Of a stretch of DNA of 64,000 nt, positions 40,490-64,000 are shown one piece after another. This stretch comes from Chitinophagaceae bacterium IBVUCB2 (GTDB lineage: Bacteria > Bacteroidota > Bacteroidia > Chitinophagales > Chitinophagaceae): positions 868,001 through 932,000 of the forward strand of contig NFUV01000001.1 in the NCBI GenBank assembly GCA_002127295.1, read 5' to 3'. The position numbers and the translations under genes were made by a program. Numbering within the stretch: position 1 is the stretch's first letter; every line of letters starts with the position of its first letter. Under the pieces are notes generated by a model, which was not told the DNA's origin, made no database searches, and was given only the letters and a program-made list of their open reading frames with translations.

Positions 40490-40687
40490 ACCAACGGTAC
40501 ATTTTTTAAAGCCGTTTGCTTTATCTTAGCCGAAACAGATTTTCCGCACACAATGGAAATATCTGCATAATGCTGAGTAGTGAACTGGACGTACAAGTGT
40601 GCGACGCAACAGAAGATAATAGTAGTAATAGTGGTTGCTAAATAAAATTCTTTACGGCTTTGATTTATTAATAAATAACATTCACAC

Positions 40688-59889: not shown

Positions 59890-61017
59890 ATGAAAAAGAA
59901 AATTGCAGTAATAGAAGGTGACGGGATAGGCCCGGAAGTAACACAACAGTCTATTCGTATTTTAGATTCGATAGCTGAACATTTCAATCATGAATTTGAA
60001 TATACTTATTGTTTGATGGGTGCTGATGCTATTGATAAGACCGGCAATCCATTGCCGGATGAAACCATTGAAGTTTGCCTGAACAGTGATGCAATATTGT
60101 TTGGTGCGATCGGTCATCCTAAATATGATAATGACCCCACCGCTAAAGTAAGGCCTGAACAGGGTTTACTGAAACTCCGTAAATCTTTACAGCTTTATGC
60201 GAACATCCGCCCGGTAAGTACTTATGCTTCGCTACATCATTTATCTCCACTAAAAAGTAAGTATATCGAAGGAGTTGATTTCATCATCTTCCGTGAACTG
60301 ACCGGTGGAATTTACTTTGGGAAAAAAGAAATTAGTGTAGATGGCACTCAGGCAAGTGATGATTGTGTTTATACAAAAGCAGAAATTGAACGCATAGCAG
60401 GACTAGCTTTTCATTTTGCTCAAAAACCAAACAGGAGAAAAAAACTGACATTGGTTGATAAGGCCAATGTACTGGAAACATCAAGACTATGGAGAAAAGT
60501 AGTGCAGGAGATGGCACCACAATATCCTGATGTGACAGTAGATTATATGTTTGTTGACAATGCGGCCATGCAGATCATCGTGAACCCAAAACAGTTTGAT
60601 GTAATTCTTACAGAAAATATGTTTGGCGACATCATCAGTGATGAAGCCAGTGTGATAAGTGGTTCGCTGGGACTATTGCCTTCTGCTTCTGTTGGAATAA
60701 ATGAAAAAATTGCTTTGTTCGAACCTATTCATGGCTCTTACCCGCAGGCTGCCGGAAAAGATATTGCCAACCCGATTGGTTCTATTCTTTCTGCTGCAAT
60801 GATGCTGGATTTTCTGAGTATGGAAGAAGAAGCCAAATTGGTAAGAGATGCAGTGAACTGGACATTGATGAATTCCTTTGTAACAAAAGATATTGACCCC
60901 GTTAATTTTTATTTCACTTCTACCATAGGGGAATTGATCAGTGATTTTGTAAGTGGAAAGGTTTCAGGCTCTGTTAATTCCGAAAATATTGAGTTAAGAA
61001 AATCGACTATTATATAA
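59890..61017 (+). CDS. leuB: 3-isopropylmalate dehydrogenase
   Basis: LeuB oxidises and decarboxylates 3-isopropylmalate to 2-oxoisocaproate using NAD+. The 375 residues show IAVIEGDGIGPEV, the substrate arginines in LLKLRKSLQLYANIRP and FRELTGGIYFG, the Lys in LVDKANVLETSRLW, and the metal-binding TENMFGDIISDEASVISGSLGLLPSAS. It is the last leu gene before the 288-bp attenuator region. Confidence 0.96.
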   Translation: MKKKIAVIEGDGIGPEVTQQSIRILDSIAEHFNHEFEYTYCLMGADAIDKTGNPLPDETIEVCLNSDAILFGAIGHPKYDNDPTAKVRPEQGLLKLRKSLQLYANIRPVSTYASLHHLSPLKSKYIEGVDFIIFRELTGGIYFGKKEISVDGTQASDDCVYTKAEIERIAGLAFHFAQKPNRRKKLTLVDKANVLETSRLWRKVVQEMAPQYPDVTVDYMFVDNAAMQIIVNPKQFDVILTENMFGDIISDEASVISGSLGLLPSASVGINEKIALFEPIHGSYPQAAGKDIANPIGSILSAAMMLDFLSMEEEAKLVRDAVNWTLMNSFVTKDIDPVNFYFTSTIGELISDFVSGKVSGSVNSENIELRKSTII

Positions 61018-61118
61018 GCAACATTAACTAACGAAGGTTCGCTTATTCGAAAATAAAATTGCTTGCTGAGTTCTTTTTTTGAAACGGCGGGTGTATATTT
61101 ACAAAACATACATCCTTC

Positions 61119-61214
61119 ATGTTGAAGAATAATATATATAATGTCATCGCCAGCGTAGCTACAATTATTATTGTGGTTGTCATTATTATATCTTCAAATG
61201 GAGGTGGTGCATGA
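61119..61214 (+). CDS. Putative Ile/Val-rich leader peptide of ilvE-ilvD
   Basis: The 31-codon frame opens at the ATG at 61119 with MLKNNIYNVIASVAT, continues with IIIVVVIII (codons 16-24, 61164-61190) and closes with SSNGGGA and TGA. In all it has 8 Ile, 5 Val and 1 Leu codons. It lies directly upstream of an antiterminator/terminator pair and of the branched-chain aminotransferase gene. The unbroken run of regulatory amino acid codons is the hallmark of an ilv-type attenuation leader. A small transmembrane protein would look similar, so the RNA structures are what favour a leader role. Confidence 0.8.
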   Translation: MLKNNIYNVIASVATIIIVVVIIISSNGGGA

Positions 61215-61242
61215 TTATAAAAAGTTAACAACAAAATATCAG

Positions 61243-61276
61243 CGACCCGCCTCCAAAAAGGCGGGTCGTTTTTTTT
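61243..61276 (+). terminator. Attenuator terminator upstream of ilvE
   Basis: CGACCCGCCT and AGGCGGGTCG form a perfect 10-bp stem with loop CCAAAA, followed by eight Ts (61269-61276). It lies 30 nt before the ilvE ATG and not directly after leuB, so a conditional role fits better than simple termination of the leu genes. Confidence 0.92.
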
Positions 61277-61305
61277 ATACCCGCAATCAGAACAAAAACA
61301 AGATT

Positions 61306-62202
61306 ATGTATTACACCGACAACACAGTTATCTATTTCAATGGAGAGTTTGTAAAAGCTGCAGAGGCTAAGACTGACCTCTACAGCCAGTCATTACATTA
61401 TGGCTATGCCGTATTTGAAGGCATCCGCTCCTATCCTATTAACGGCGGCACAAAAATGTTCAAAGGAAAAGAACATTATGATCGCCTGCGCCATTCAGCC
61501 AAAGTAATGAGAATACCATTTGAATACACAACGGAGAAATTAGTTGAGTTGACATATGAAGTGTTGAAGAGAAATAATTTCACAGATGCGTATATCCGTC
61601 CGATCGTTCTGTGTTCTCCTAACATGGCTTTATCAAAAGGAAAAGAATCCTATCTCGCCATTGAAGCATGGCAATGGACAAATGGATACATGACTAATAA
61701 GATGAAGATCATGACATCTTCGTATCGTCGCCCCAACGCAGATGCATTTCATGTGGATGCAAAAGTGAGTGGCCATTATGTAAATTCTATTCTTGCCTGC
61801 CAGGAAGCAAAAGACAATGGATTTGATGAGGCCCTGGTACTTGATAGTAATGGATTTGTAGCAGAAAGCAGTGGTGCAAATATTTTTTATGAGAATGACG
61901 GAGTGTTGTACACGGCACCAAAAGGAAATATTCTTCCCGGTATTACAAGAGCAACAGTAATTGAAATATGCAAGGAGTTAAATATACCTGTTGTAGAAAG
62001 ATTCTTTATGCCTGACGAGATGAAAGGTGCTGATGCAGGTTTCTTCTGTGGTACGGCTGCTGAAGTAGTAGCACTGAGTTCACTGGATAATGTTGACTTT
62101 AAAAAGAATTGGGAAGATTCATTGAGCTATGTGATACAGCAGGCCTACAAATGTAAAGTATTGGAGAAACCATTTCGATTAGAAGAGCAAGCAGTTGCTT
62201 AA
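61306..62202 (+). CDS. ilvE: Branched-chain amino acid aminotransferase
   Basis: This fold-type IV PLP enzyme makes the last step to Ile, Val and Leu. The ATG at 61306 gives 298 residues and MYYTDNTVIYFNGEFV; longer frames upstream run through the terminator. Motifs include SLHYGYAVFEGIRSY, the PLP lysine region in DAKVSGHYVNSILACQEAK, EALVLDSNGFVAESSGANIF and LPGITRATVIEI, and ends with FFCGTAAEVVAL. It is the first gene after the attenuator. Confidence 0.94.
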   Translation: MYYTDNTVIYFNGEFVKAAEAKTDLYSQSLHYGYAVFEGIRSYPINGGTKMFKGKEHYDRLRHSAKVMRIPFEYTTEKLVELTYEVLKRNNFTDAYIRPIVLCSPNMALSKGKESYLAIEAWQWTNGYMTNKMKIMTSSYRRPNADAFHVDAKVSGHYVNSILACQEAKDNGFDEALVLDSNGFVAESSGANIFYENDGVLYTAPKGNILPGITRATVIEICKELNIPVVERFFMPDEMKGADAGFFCGTAAEVVALSSLDNVDFKKNWEDSLSYVIQQAYKCKVLEKPFRLEEQAVA

Positions 62203-62325: not shown

Positions 62326-64000
62326 ATGACGGAATTAAATAAATATTCAAAAACATTAACGCAAGACCCGACACAACCTGCGGCACAGGCGATGTATTAT
62401 GCTATTGGTTTTAAAGAAGAAGATTTTAATAAAGCTCAAGTAGGCATTGTAAGTATGGGCTGGGATGGCAATCCCTGTAATATGCACTTGAATGATTTGT
62501 CGGATAATGTTAGAAAAGCTGTGAATGCAACAGATGGTTTGTTGGGTTTACGATTTTATACCATTGGTGTGAGTGATGGCATCAGCATGGGTACGGATGG
62601 AATGCGGTATAGTTTAGTGAGCCGTGATGTAATAGCTGACAGTATTGAAACAAATGCTGGTGCACAATATTATGATGGCATCATTGCTATTCCTGGTTGT
62701 GATAAAAATATGCCGGGTGCAGTAATGGCAATGGGAAGATTGAACCGCCCTTCTATTATGTTATATGGTGGAACAATTGCTCCGGGTCATTATAAAGGTG
62801 AAGACCTGAATATTGTAAGTGCATTTGAAGCATTGGGCCAAAAAATAGCAGGCAATTTAAGTGAAGCAGATTTTAAAGGCATCGTTAAGCATTCTTGTCC
62901 GGGTGCTGGTGCATGTGGTGGAATGTACACCGCTAACACAATGGCTGCTGCAATTGAAGCTTTGGGAATGAGTTTGCCGAATTCTTCTTCCAATCCTGCA
63001 TTGAGTGAAGAAAAACAAAAAGAATGTGCTGCAGTTGGGGAAGCAATAAAAATATTGTTGCAAAAAAATATTACACCGAAAGACATTATGACTTTCAAAG
63101 CATTTGAAAATGCTATTACAGTTATTATGGTGTTGGGTGGAAGCACTAATGCAGTTTTGCATTTGATAGCAATGGCAAAGAGTGTGGATGTAGAATTGTC
63201 ACAAGACGATTTTCAAAAGATAAGTGACCGTATTCCTGTATTAGCTGATTTTAAACCATCGGGAAAGTATTTGATGGAAGACCTGCACAAACATGGCGGC
63301 GTTCCTGCAGTGATGAAATACTTATTGAGCAAAGGTTTATTACATGGCGATTGTATAACAGTAACAGGAAAAACGGTGGCTGAGAATTTAGCAACTGTTG
63401 CTGATCTTGATTTTGATGCGCAAAAAATAATCATGCCTTTGGAAACTCCTTTGAAAGCAACGGGACACTTACAAATTCTCTATGGCAATCTTGCAGAAAA
63501 AGGAAGTGTTGCAAAAATAAGTGGCAAAGAAGGTGAACGATTTGAAGGAACAGCCAGAGTTTTTGATGGTGAAAAAGATCTCATAGCAGGCATACAATCA
63601 GGTAAAGTGCATGCAGGTGATGTAGTGGTGATACGTTATATCGGACCAAAAGGTGCGCCGGGAATGCCAGAGATGTTGAAACCAACCGGTGCTATCATTG
63701 GAGCAGGATTAGGAAAATCTGTAGCATTAATAACTGACGGAAGATTTAGCGGCGGTACACATGGTTTTGTTGTTGGTCACATTACTCCCGAAGCATTTGA
63801 TGGCGGATTGATAGGACTCGTAGAAGATAATGACATCATTGAAATTGATGCAGTGAATAATACATTGACATTAAAAGTAAGAGATGAAGTAATTGCTGAC
63901 AGAAGAAAAAGCTGGAAGCAACCAGCATTGAAAGCAACAAAAGGAATTCTATTCAAATATGCAAGATCTGTTAAGCCGGCTAATGAAGGCTGTGTAACAG
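62326..64000 (+). CDS. ilvD: Dihydroxy-acid dehydratase (3' end cut by window edge)
   Basis: IlvD dehydrates dihydroxy acids to the 2-oxo acids of valine and isoleucine. The frame opens at the ATG at 62326 ([20 protein letters not shown]) and stays open for 558 codons to the edge, so only a few codons are missing compared with the usual 560 or so. Fe-S ligands and metal sites are in [20 protein letters not shown] and [35 protein letters not shown] is the signature near the end. It follows ilvE by 123 bp; ilvB, ilvN and ilvC probably follow beyond the edge. Confidence 0.95.

Follow-up and report, generated by a model that had tools for sequence, protein, structure and literature searches.

The window (the whole 64-kb stretch that was analysed, positions 868001-932000 of contig C1 in genome G000) contains a leuA-leuC-leuD-leuB cluster followed on the plus strand by ilvE and ilvD. 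The genes ilvB, ilvN, ilvC and ilvA come next in the same genome, and ORFs resembling gltB and gltD (names taken from their translations) lie 3' of ilvA. The gap between leuB and ilvE holds a short leader ORF, a putative promoter and several predicted RNA segments:

59890-61017, plus strand: leuB, the upstream gene and end of leuA-leuC-leuD-leuB
61070-61102, plus strand: putative promoter, with GTTCTTT at 61070-61076 and the -7 box TATATTTAC at 61094-61102 (consensus TAnnTTTG)
61111-61128, plus strand: segment 1, predicted protector, reaching from the 5'UTR through the start codon into the first codons; partner strand 61191-61206
61119-61214, plus strand: leader peptide ORF MLKNNIYNVIASVATIIIVVVIIISSNGGGA, 31 sense codons and TGA, located between the end of leuB (61017) and the start of ilvE (61306)
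61164-61190, plus strand: control codons, nine for Ile/Val including the rare GTC at 61179-61181, from sequence and codon counts
61191-61207, plus strand: segment 2, with segment 1 as its partner or, via GGAGGTGG (61200-61207), segment 3
61247-61254, plus strand: segment 3, CCGCCTCC, 3' arm of the antiterminator; overlaps the left arm of the terminator
61241-61276, plus strand: predicted intrinsic terminator, stem 61241-61251/61260-61270 and T-run 61269-61276; its right arm is segment 4
61306-62202, plus strand: ilvE, class IV aminotransferase (PF01063), first gene of the proposed controlled unit
62326-64000, plus strand: ilvD, which continues beyond the window end
G000:C1:932023-936865: ilvB, ilvN, ilvC and ilvA

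Pfam assigns only HMGL-like and HCS_D2 domains to LeuA (E<=1e-5) and no C-terminal regulatory domain, consistent with the earlier observation that this enzyme lacks its feedback domain. Neither a Leu-rich leader nor a run of leucine codons was seen upstream of leuA.

The product of the leader ORF is hydrophobic. The nine consecutive Ile/Val codons originally read in its 31-codon frame are present and occupy codons 16-24 (ATT ATT ATT GTG GTT GTC ATT ATT ATA); this is the sole instance of at least nine Ile/Val codons in a row when all six window frames are considered, and nine genes of the window (3647 aa) contain Ile/Val runs of at most four. One other Ile/Val run of at least seven codons occurs in the six frames, IIVVIVV at 40616 on the plus strand.

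A search with IlvE returned 22 loci, comprising seven Chitinophagaceae, eight Ferruginibacter/Sediminibacterium, one Chryseobacterium and the rest with other Bacteroidota labels. An Ile/Val leader precedes ilvE in 17 of these, among them that of the culturable Sediminibacterium goheungense (L016), and a leader of this kind is missing in five (L012, L018-L021), with a TTG-start ORF at L012 left out of the leader count. A covariance model built on 12 leaders (R1, cut-off E<=0.01) yielded 93 matches in 92 of the 396 genomes of the order, representing 43 of 165 genera, and no match at this cut-off in the other 304 genomes. Ninety matches were examined (G333, G389 and G110 were left out), four of which are training leaders. 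The gene 3' of the match encodes IlvE in 56 cases, IlvD in 25 and another protein in nine, and 80 of the 81 matches ahead of ilvE or ilvD contain four or more Ile/Val codons in a row. Among the remaining nine, Phe/Tyr-rich leaders precede prephenate dehydratase (L054 in the same genome as the window, L104, L105) and prephenate dehydrogenase (L108), and an Ile/Val leader at L045 precedes an ORF with an ACT domain; L099, L102, L111 and L113 have no assigned explanation. The 81 ilvE/ilvD-linked leaders and L045 constitute the test set of 82 leaders (within L024-L112) used below.

The use of Val codons distinguishes the leaders from the genes behind them: GTC makes up 141 of 397 Val codons in the leaders (36%) versus 106 of 1510 in downstream genes of the same loci (7%), an odds ratio of 7.3, and at least one GTC is present in 75 of 80 leaders. 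Such rare control codons would sharpen the sensing of amino acid supply. The motif GGAGG is read in frame, encoding Gly-Gly, in 63 of the 82 leaders, lies off frame or past the stop in four and is missing in 15, and the in-frame majority leaves some room for a coding constraint. GGAGG is present in 67 leaders, a striking constancy given that its pairing partner could covary.

A conserved and structured 5' leader ahead of a biosynthetic operon could also represent an RNA switch that works independently of translation (riboswitch, T-box or protein-binding leader) and acts on the same terminator. This is extremely unlikely, as conservation from promoter to terminator falls on the reading frame, its codon run and short helices, and none of the 4227 models of Rfam release 15 reached its gathering score in the window, at L017 or at the his, trp, phe and thr loci of the same genome; the best sub-threshold leader match between 56300 and 64000 was Phe_leader (32.6 bits versus 55 needed).

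The RNA of positions 61119-61290 folds at -46.9 kcal/mol (z -4.2), and none of 200 shuffled sequences was equally stable. The predicted 8-bp pairing between the last leader codons and the strand shared with the left arm of the terminator was confirmed, with one G-U among its pairs: GGAGGTGG (61200-61207) pairs with CCGCCTCC (61247-61254), and U61199-A61255 alongside adds a ninth pair. The terminator had been described as a perfect 10-bp stem with eight Ts. The eight Ts are there, but the tenth pair is G-U; the stem is 11 bp long, consisting of nine Watson-Crick pairs, then G-U, then A-U, or 12 bp if U61252-A61259 is counted. A complement of the right arm of the terminator lies just past it (in the window ACCCG, behind the T-run) in seven of the 82 leaders versus 2.9 expected.

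Ribosome positions were considered together with these folds. With GTC (codon 21) in the A site and the 3' footprint edge assumed at +13, the unoccupied RNA as far as 61266 adopts the antiterminator fold (-19.7 kcal/mol), and with a ribosome on the stop codon the terminator alone forms (-22.8 kcal/mol). Once the RNA is made to 61270, the terminator is preferred even with segment 2 free (-23.2 versus -19.7 kcal/mol), so that the switch must be kinetic. Under assumed footprint edges, segment 2 is free in all 82 leaders when the first codon of the run is in the A site, and is covered by the stop-codon ribosome in 73 of 82. The computed ribosome positions and folds fit the classical attenuation geometry put forward in the original prediction.

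A lack of conservation of the leader frame and of the two competing stems in relatives had been named as grounds for refutation. Frame and stems are kept in relatives, and their pairs covary or coevolve. The alignment of terminator and antiterminator (87 rows, one of them from the wrong strand) was fitted to the terminator stem, in which each of the ten modelled pairs has changed on both sides; paired cells make up 95.5% of the terminator compared with 78.2% in shuffles, and both-side changes affect 145 cells compared with 26. In the antiterminator, both-side changes occur in seven of eight pairs (2.6 in shuffles) and in 13 cells (4.7 in shuffles), and none of 500 shuffles scored as high. When the antiterminator was slid by one to three columns, both-side changes were found in 2-15 cells and one to five pairs; the cell count alone therefore cannot single out the antiterminator, whereas the covariation score does (0.110 versus 0.018-0.054 when slid). 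Exchanged pairs include GGAAGTGG with CCACTTCC (L086, L097) and AGAGGAGC with GCTTCTCT (L094). In an alignment-free count, an antiterminator helix of at least 6 bp was present in 72 of 82 leaders, and the antiterminator was matched by at most 5% of shuffles in 62 leaders and by more than 5% in 20. The terminators of L037, L059 and L093 were misplaced; these leaders were kept in this count and dropped from the partner-swap test below, which covers 79 of the 82.

The original model comprised two stems, both of which stand, and missed a third helix at the leader start codon. This helix appears in the ribosome-free fold of the window RNA, where 61111-61128 (segment 1) pairs with 61191-61206 in segment 2. 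A 1:2 duplex of -10 kcal/mol or lower was found in 63 of the 82 leaders, and bases of the start codon are paired in 59 of these 63. Column by column the signal is weak: 59.5% of cells are paired versus 57.0% in shuffles and 40-50% when slid, and both-side changes occur in six pairs versus 6.3 in shuffles, which we ascribe to a shifting register. The protector was absent from the RNAalifold consensus of 40 of the 82 leaders, which contained the terminator and a small hairpin spanning the Ile codons instead. An earlier test of 12 UTR bases against segment 2 (16 of 82 leaders at p<=0.05) was superseded by a partner swap, in which the duplex energies of each leader's own segments were compared with those of permuted partners. 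Own partners paired better than permuted ones for 1:2 (-13.3 versus -10.2 kcal/mol), 2:3 (-15.1 versus -13.6 kcal/mol) and 3:4 (-21.0 versus -15.4 kcal/mol), and for each helix none of 5000 permutations was as low. When each genus label contributed a single leader (39 labels, eight draws), z was about -6.6 (1:2), -6.7 (2:3) and -13.4 (3:4). Control pairings gave z -1.0 for segment 1 with the 24 nt past the stop and +1.9 for segment 1 with segment 3; segment 2 paired with codons 5-13 was low as well (z -2.4; 27 of 5000 for all leaders tested). The antiterminator search partly determined where segment 2 begins and ends, which slightly favours 2:3, and relatedness between genera remains in these comparisons.

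The predicted segment 1 of the window element (61111-61128) lies off the control codons (61164-61190). In enteric, trp-type attenuators, segment 1 is located on the control codons and is covered by the stalled ribosome, so the arrangement at the start codon would be a variant. A stalled ribosome would lie inside the 1:2 loop and would not physically cover segment 1; we infer that the stalled ribosome, ribosomes queued behind it and new initiation together hold 1:2 open.

The putative promoter recurs among the relatives. TAnnTTTG is the -7 consensus of Bacteroidota (PMC9723704; this and the other articles cited by PMC number are drawn on for the portions covered), and 74 of the 82 leaders have a match to at least five of its six defined positions in the 45 nt preceding their start, compared with 31% of shuffles. 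The -7 box ends 15-18 nt upstream of the leader start in 51 of these 74, and GTTCTTT is present in 65 of 82 leaders versus 1.7 expected. This recurrence suggests that most leaders have their own promoter and a very short 5'UTR, and in the window transcription probably starts at about 61107-61112. Upstream of the promoter, a palindrome-like AACGN2-5GTT (61029-61050 in the window) is found at nine of 82 loci versus 2.4 expected, and is possibly a repressor operator. A leuB-like sequence was detected within the retrieved 0.4-1.5 kb upstream of 69 of the 82 leaders, making a location behind leu genes the rule in this set. The element had been described as placed inside a leu-ilv cluster and as controlling ilvE-ilvD. 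Its position behind leuB and both target genes hold, but with its own conserved promoter it functionally heads a unit, and this unit is longer, ilvE-ilvD-ilvB-ilvN-ilvC-ilvA.

The hydrophobic ORF product and the presence of leuB upstream would also suit a terminator that merely ends the leu operon, the ORF then being a chance frame or a separately selected small hydrophobic membrane peptide. We consider this very improbable. A promoter motif separates leuB from the ORF, ilvE or ilvD is the next gene in 81 of 90 matches, and segments 2 and 3 coevolve across the stop codon. Among relatives, the N-terminal residues and the stop position vary while the Ile/Val run is kept; GTC is enriched in the leaders as given above. 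Furthermore, His- and Trp-rich counterparts in the same genome and Thr-rich ones in the class lie ahead of other amino acid operons.

Sequence, conservation, coevolving helices and geometry together identify the element, with high confidence, as a ribosome-mediated (leader-peptide) transcription attenuator for Ile and Val that heads ilvEDBNCA; the transcription start, ribosome stalling, termination in vivo and response to Ile/Val are predicted parts of the model. RNA polymerase would start at the element's own promoter near 61107-61112, and a ribosome would translate the leader. With ample charged Ile- and Val-tRNA, this ribosome would get to the stop codon and cover GGAGGTGG, leaving segment 3 to build the terminator, and the RNA would end near 61276. 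If Ile or Val is scarce, the ribosome would stall within the nine-codon run, and the free GGAGGTGG would pair with CCGCCTCC before the right arm of the terminator is synthesised, allowing transcription into ilvEDBNCA. Where the leader is not translated or the ribosome has been released, segment 1 would pair with segment 2, which would keep the terminator on and hide the leader start. The proposal that this Bacteroidota genome uses the attenuation logic of enteric bacteria is supported by the conserved frame, the competing stems, covariation and geometry.

The same genome encodes further leaders of this type. L054 (G000:C1:772261-772394, minus strand) contains the Phe/Tyr-rich MTTTSTYFGFYFYYFFNKRPGMLLLKTN directly 5' of prephenate dehydratase (pheA), with the antiterminator-terminator pair GGCCGGGA/TCCCGGCC. 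The hisG leader L161 (ORF start L161:1348) encodes the His-rich MIKHTHNHHHFLLPTSRL, and the trpE leader L164 (minus strand) encodes MIKHSNNIWWWHTTLRGL with a GTG start and three Trp codons; in both, a G+C-rich terminator-like hairpin with a T-rich tail follows. At L185 (minus strand), an ORF upstream of thrA closes on eight consecutive Thr codons; the hairpin behind it lacks a T-run, which may point to attenuation of translation instead of transcription.

The thrA leader, which indicates that not every such leader needs termination, would be compatible with a reading in which attenuation is real but the ilv leader serves chiefly to adjust basal expression or translation coupling, or responds to the overall speed of translation, instead of to Ile/Val. 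The regulatory domains that Pfam detects in IlvA (Thr_dehydrat_C) and IlvN (ACT) point the same way, in that feedback control probably operates too. As the codons fit the pathway product in the ilv, his, trp, phe/tyr and thr leaders alike, this reading is nevertheless unlikely, and sensing of Ile and Val remains preferred.

Attenuators of this design are well known for the ilv and leu operons of enteric bacteria. Like ilvGMEDA (with ilvL) and ilvBN of E. coli and Salmonella, the window element combines a short leader ORF containing an Ile/Val run with a terminator and an antiterminator that share one strand. It differs from these enteric systems in belonging to another phylum, in the position of segment 1 at the start codon, in a run made up of Ile and Val only, in having its own promoter behind leuB, and in lacking a match to any Rfam leader family at gathering score.

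Outside the enterics, attenuation of an ilv operon by an upstream ORF is also represented by the ilvBNC attenuator (ilvB-II uORF) of Corynebacterium, an actinobacterial system likened here by its description in the portions covered (PMC11857589, PMC10272879). A 2013 survey suggested that the amino acid attenuators in Rfam may stem from gamma-proteobacteria (PMC3766115, portions covered). Within Bacteroidota, sORFs of B. thetaiotaomicron have been called reminiscent of leader peptides (PMC7366714, portions covered), and the Bacteroid-trp RNA motif (RF01692) is a Bacteroidetes motif named after trp (PMC2864571, portions covered); the ilv element and the trpE leader of its own genome score below every Rfam gathering threshold. 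The closest parallel is F. psychrophilum, a member of the same phylum, for which structured 5' regions with strong clues for leader-peptide attenuation have been reported before amino acid biosynthesis operons, those before pheA and hisG being among the elements conserved in its family (PMC9723704, portions covered). The ilv element, unlike these, occurs mainly in other families of the phylum. The main text of PMC9723704 contains 'ilv' 0 times, and the parts covered include no three-helix model. No report of an ilv attenuator in Bacteroidota was found among the matches listed from the open-licence literature (titles and abstract openings), which falls short of proving novelty. Leader-peptide attenuation appears hardly described in Bacteroidota and already hinted at for Flavobacterium (PMC9723704, portions covered), and the ilv element would add a new example that is well supported at the level of sequence.

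The conservation of an ilv attenuator with coevolving helices across 39 genus labels of one order, and the presence of his, trp and phe counterparts in the window's own genome, speak for a device of general use in Bacteroidota, and the covariance model is usable for annotation. We tentatively suggest, as a possibility that could well prove wrong, a phylum-wide attenuator repertoire (ilv, his, trp, phe/tyr, thr, ilvA) whose structure departs from the enteric form. In it, segment 1 would be the leader's own translation start, so that without a ribosome both termination and leader initiation would be locked, and initiation by the next ribosome would help to hold the switch open; some lineages would have two ilv attenuators stacked in series. 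Translation starts in Bacteroidota (F. psychrophilum and its group) have been reported to use non-Shine-Dalgarno features (PMC9723704, portions covered), and for a phylum that initiates translation in an unusual way, the attenuator raises the question of transcription-translation coupling. The predicted overlap of segment 1 with the start codon and the tandem arrangements described below are unusual features of interest to specialists.

Across the class, a second model (R2) matched 67 of 395 genomes with 78 match rows, 71 of them outside the order. Of these, 45 were read, with Pfam applied to L121, L123, L125, L131 and L136 and the other genes named by BLAST to window proteins or from their N-termini. 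The downstream genes were ilvE/ilvD-like in 18 cases, encoded an ACT domain or ALS small subunit in two, were aspartokinase-like in seven, hisG in two (with His runs) and threonine dehydratase genes in two (with Ile runs), and 14 matches were unexplained or due to chance. The seven leaders before aspartokinase-like genes (L123, L124, L126, L128, L133, L134, L137; one family, f61) are Thr/Ile-rich (e.g. MTINNTTIITIITTGKYFGGK) and are followed by terminators, a design similar to that of E. coli thrL.

Whereas the window element is single, Ile/Val leader-terminator modules stand in tandem ahead of ilvE or ilvD at L017, L112, L122, L146 and L166. The tandem at L017 (L017:2709-2971) is from Chryseobacterium potabilaquae, and that at L166 precedes an IlvE-like gene. 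An automatic scan, which included 17 of a further 19 loci, detected L017, L122 and L166 among 145 loci and missed L112 and L146, which were found by eye. Two leader ORFs in series are also known from Salmonella mgtCBR, where the attenuators sense two different signals (PMC3641672, portions covered); in the tandem ilv loci, in contrast, both leaders carry Ile/Val runs and appear to sense the same amino acids.
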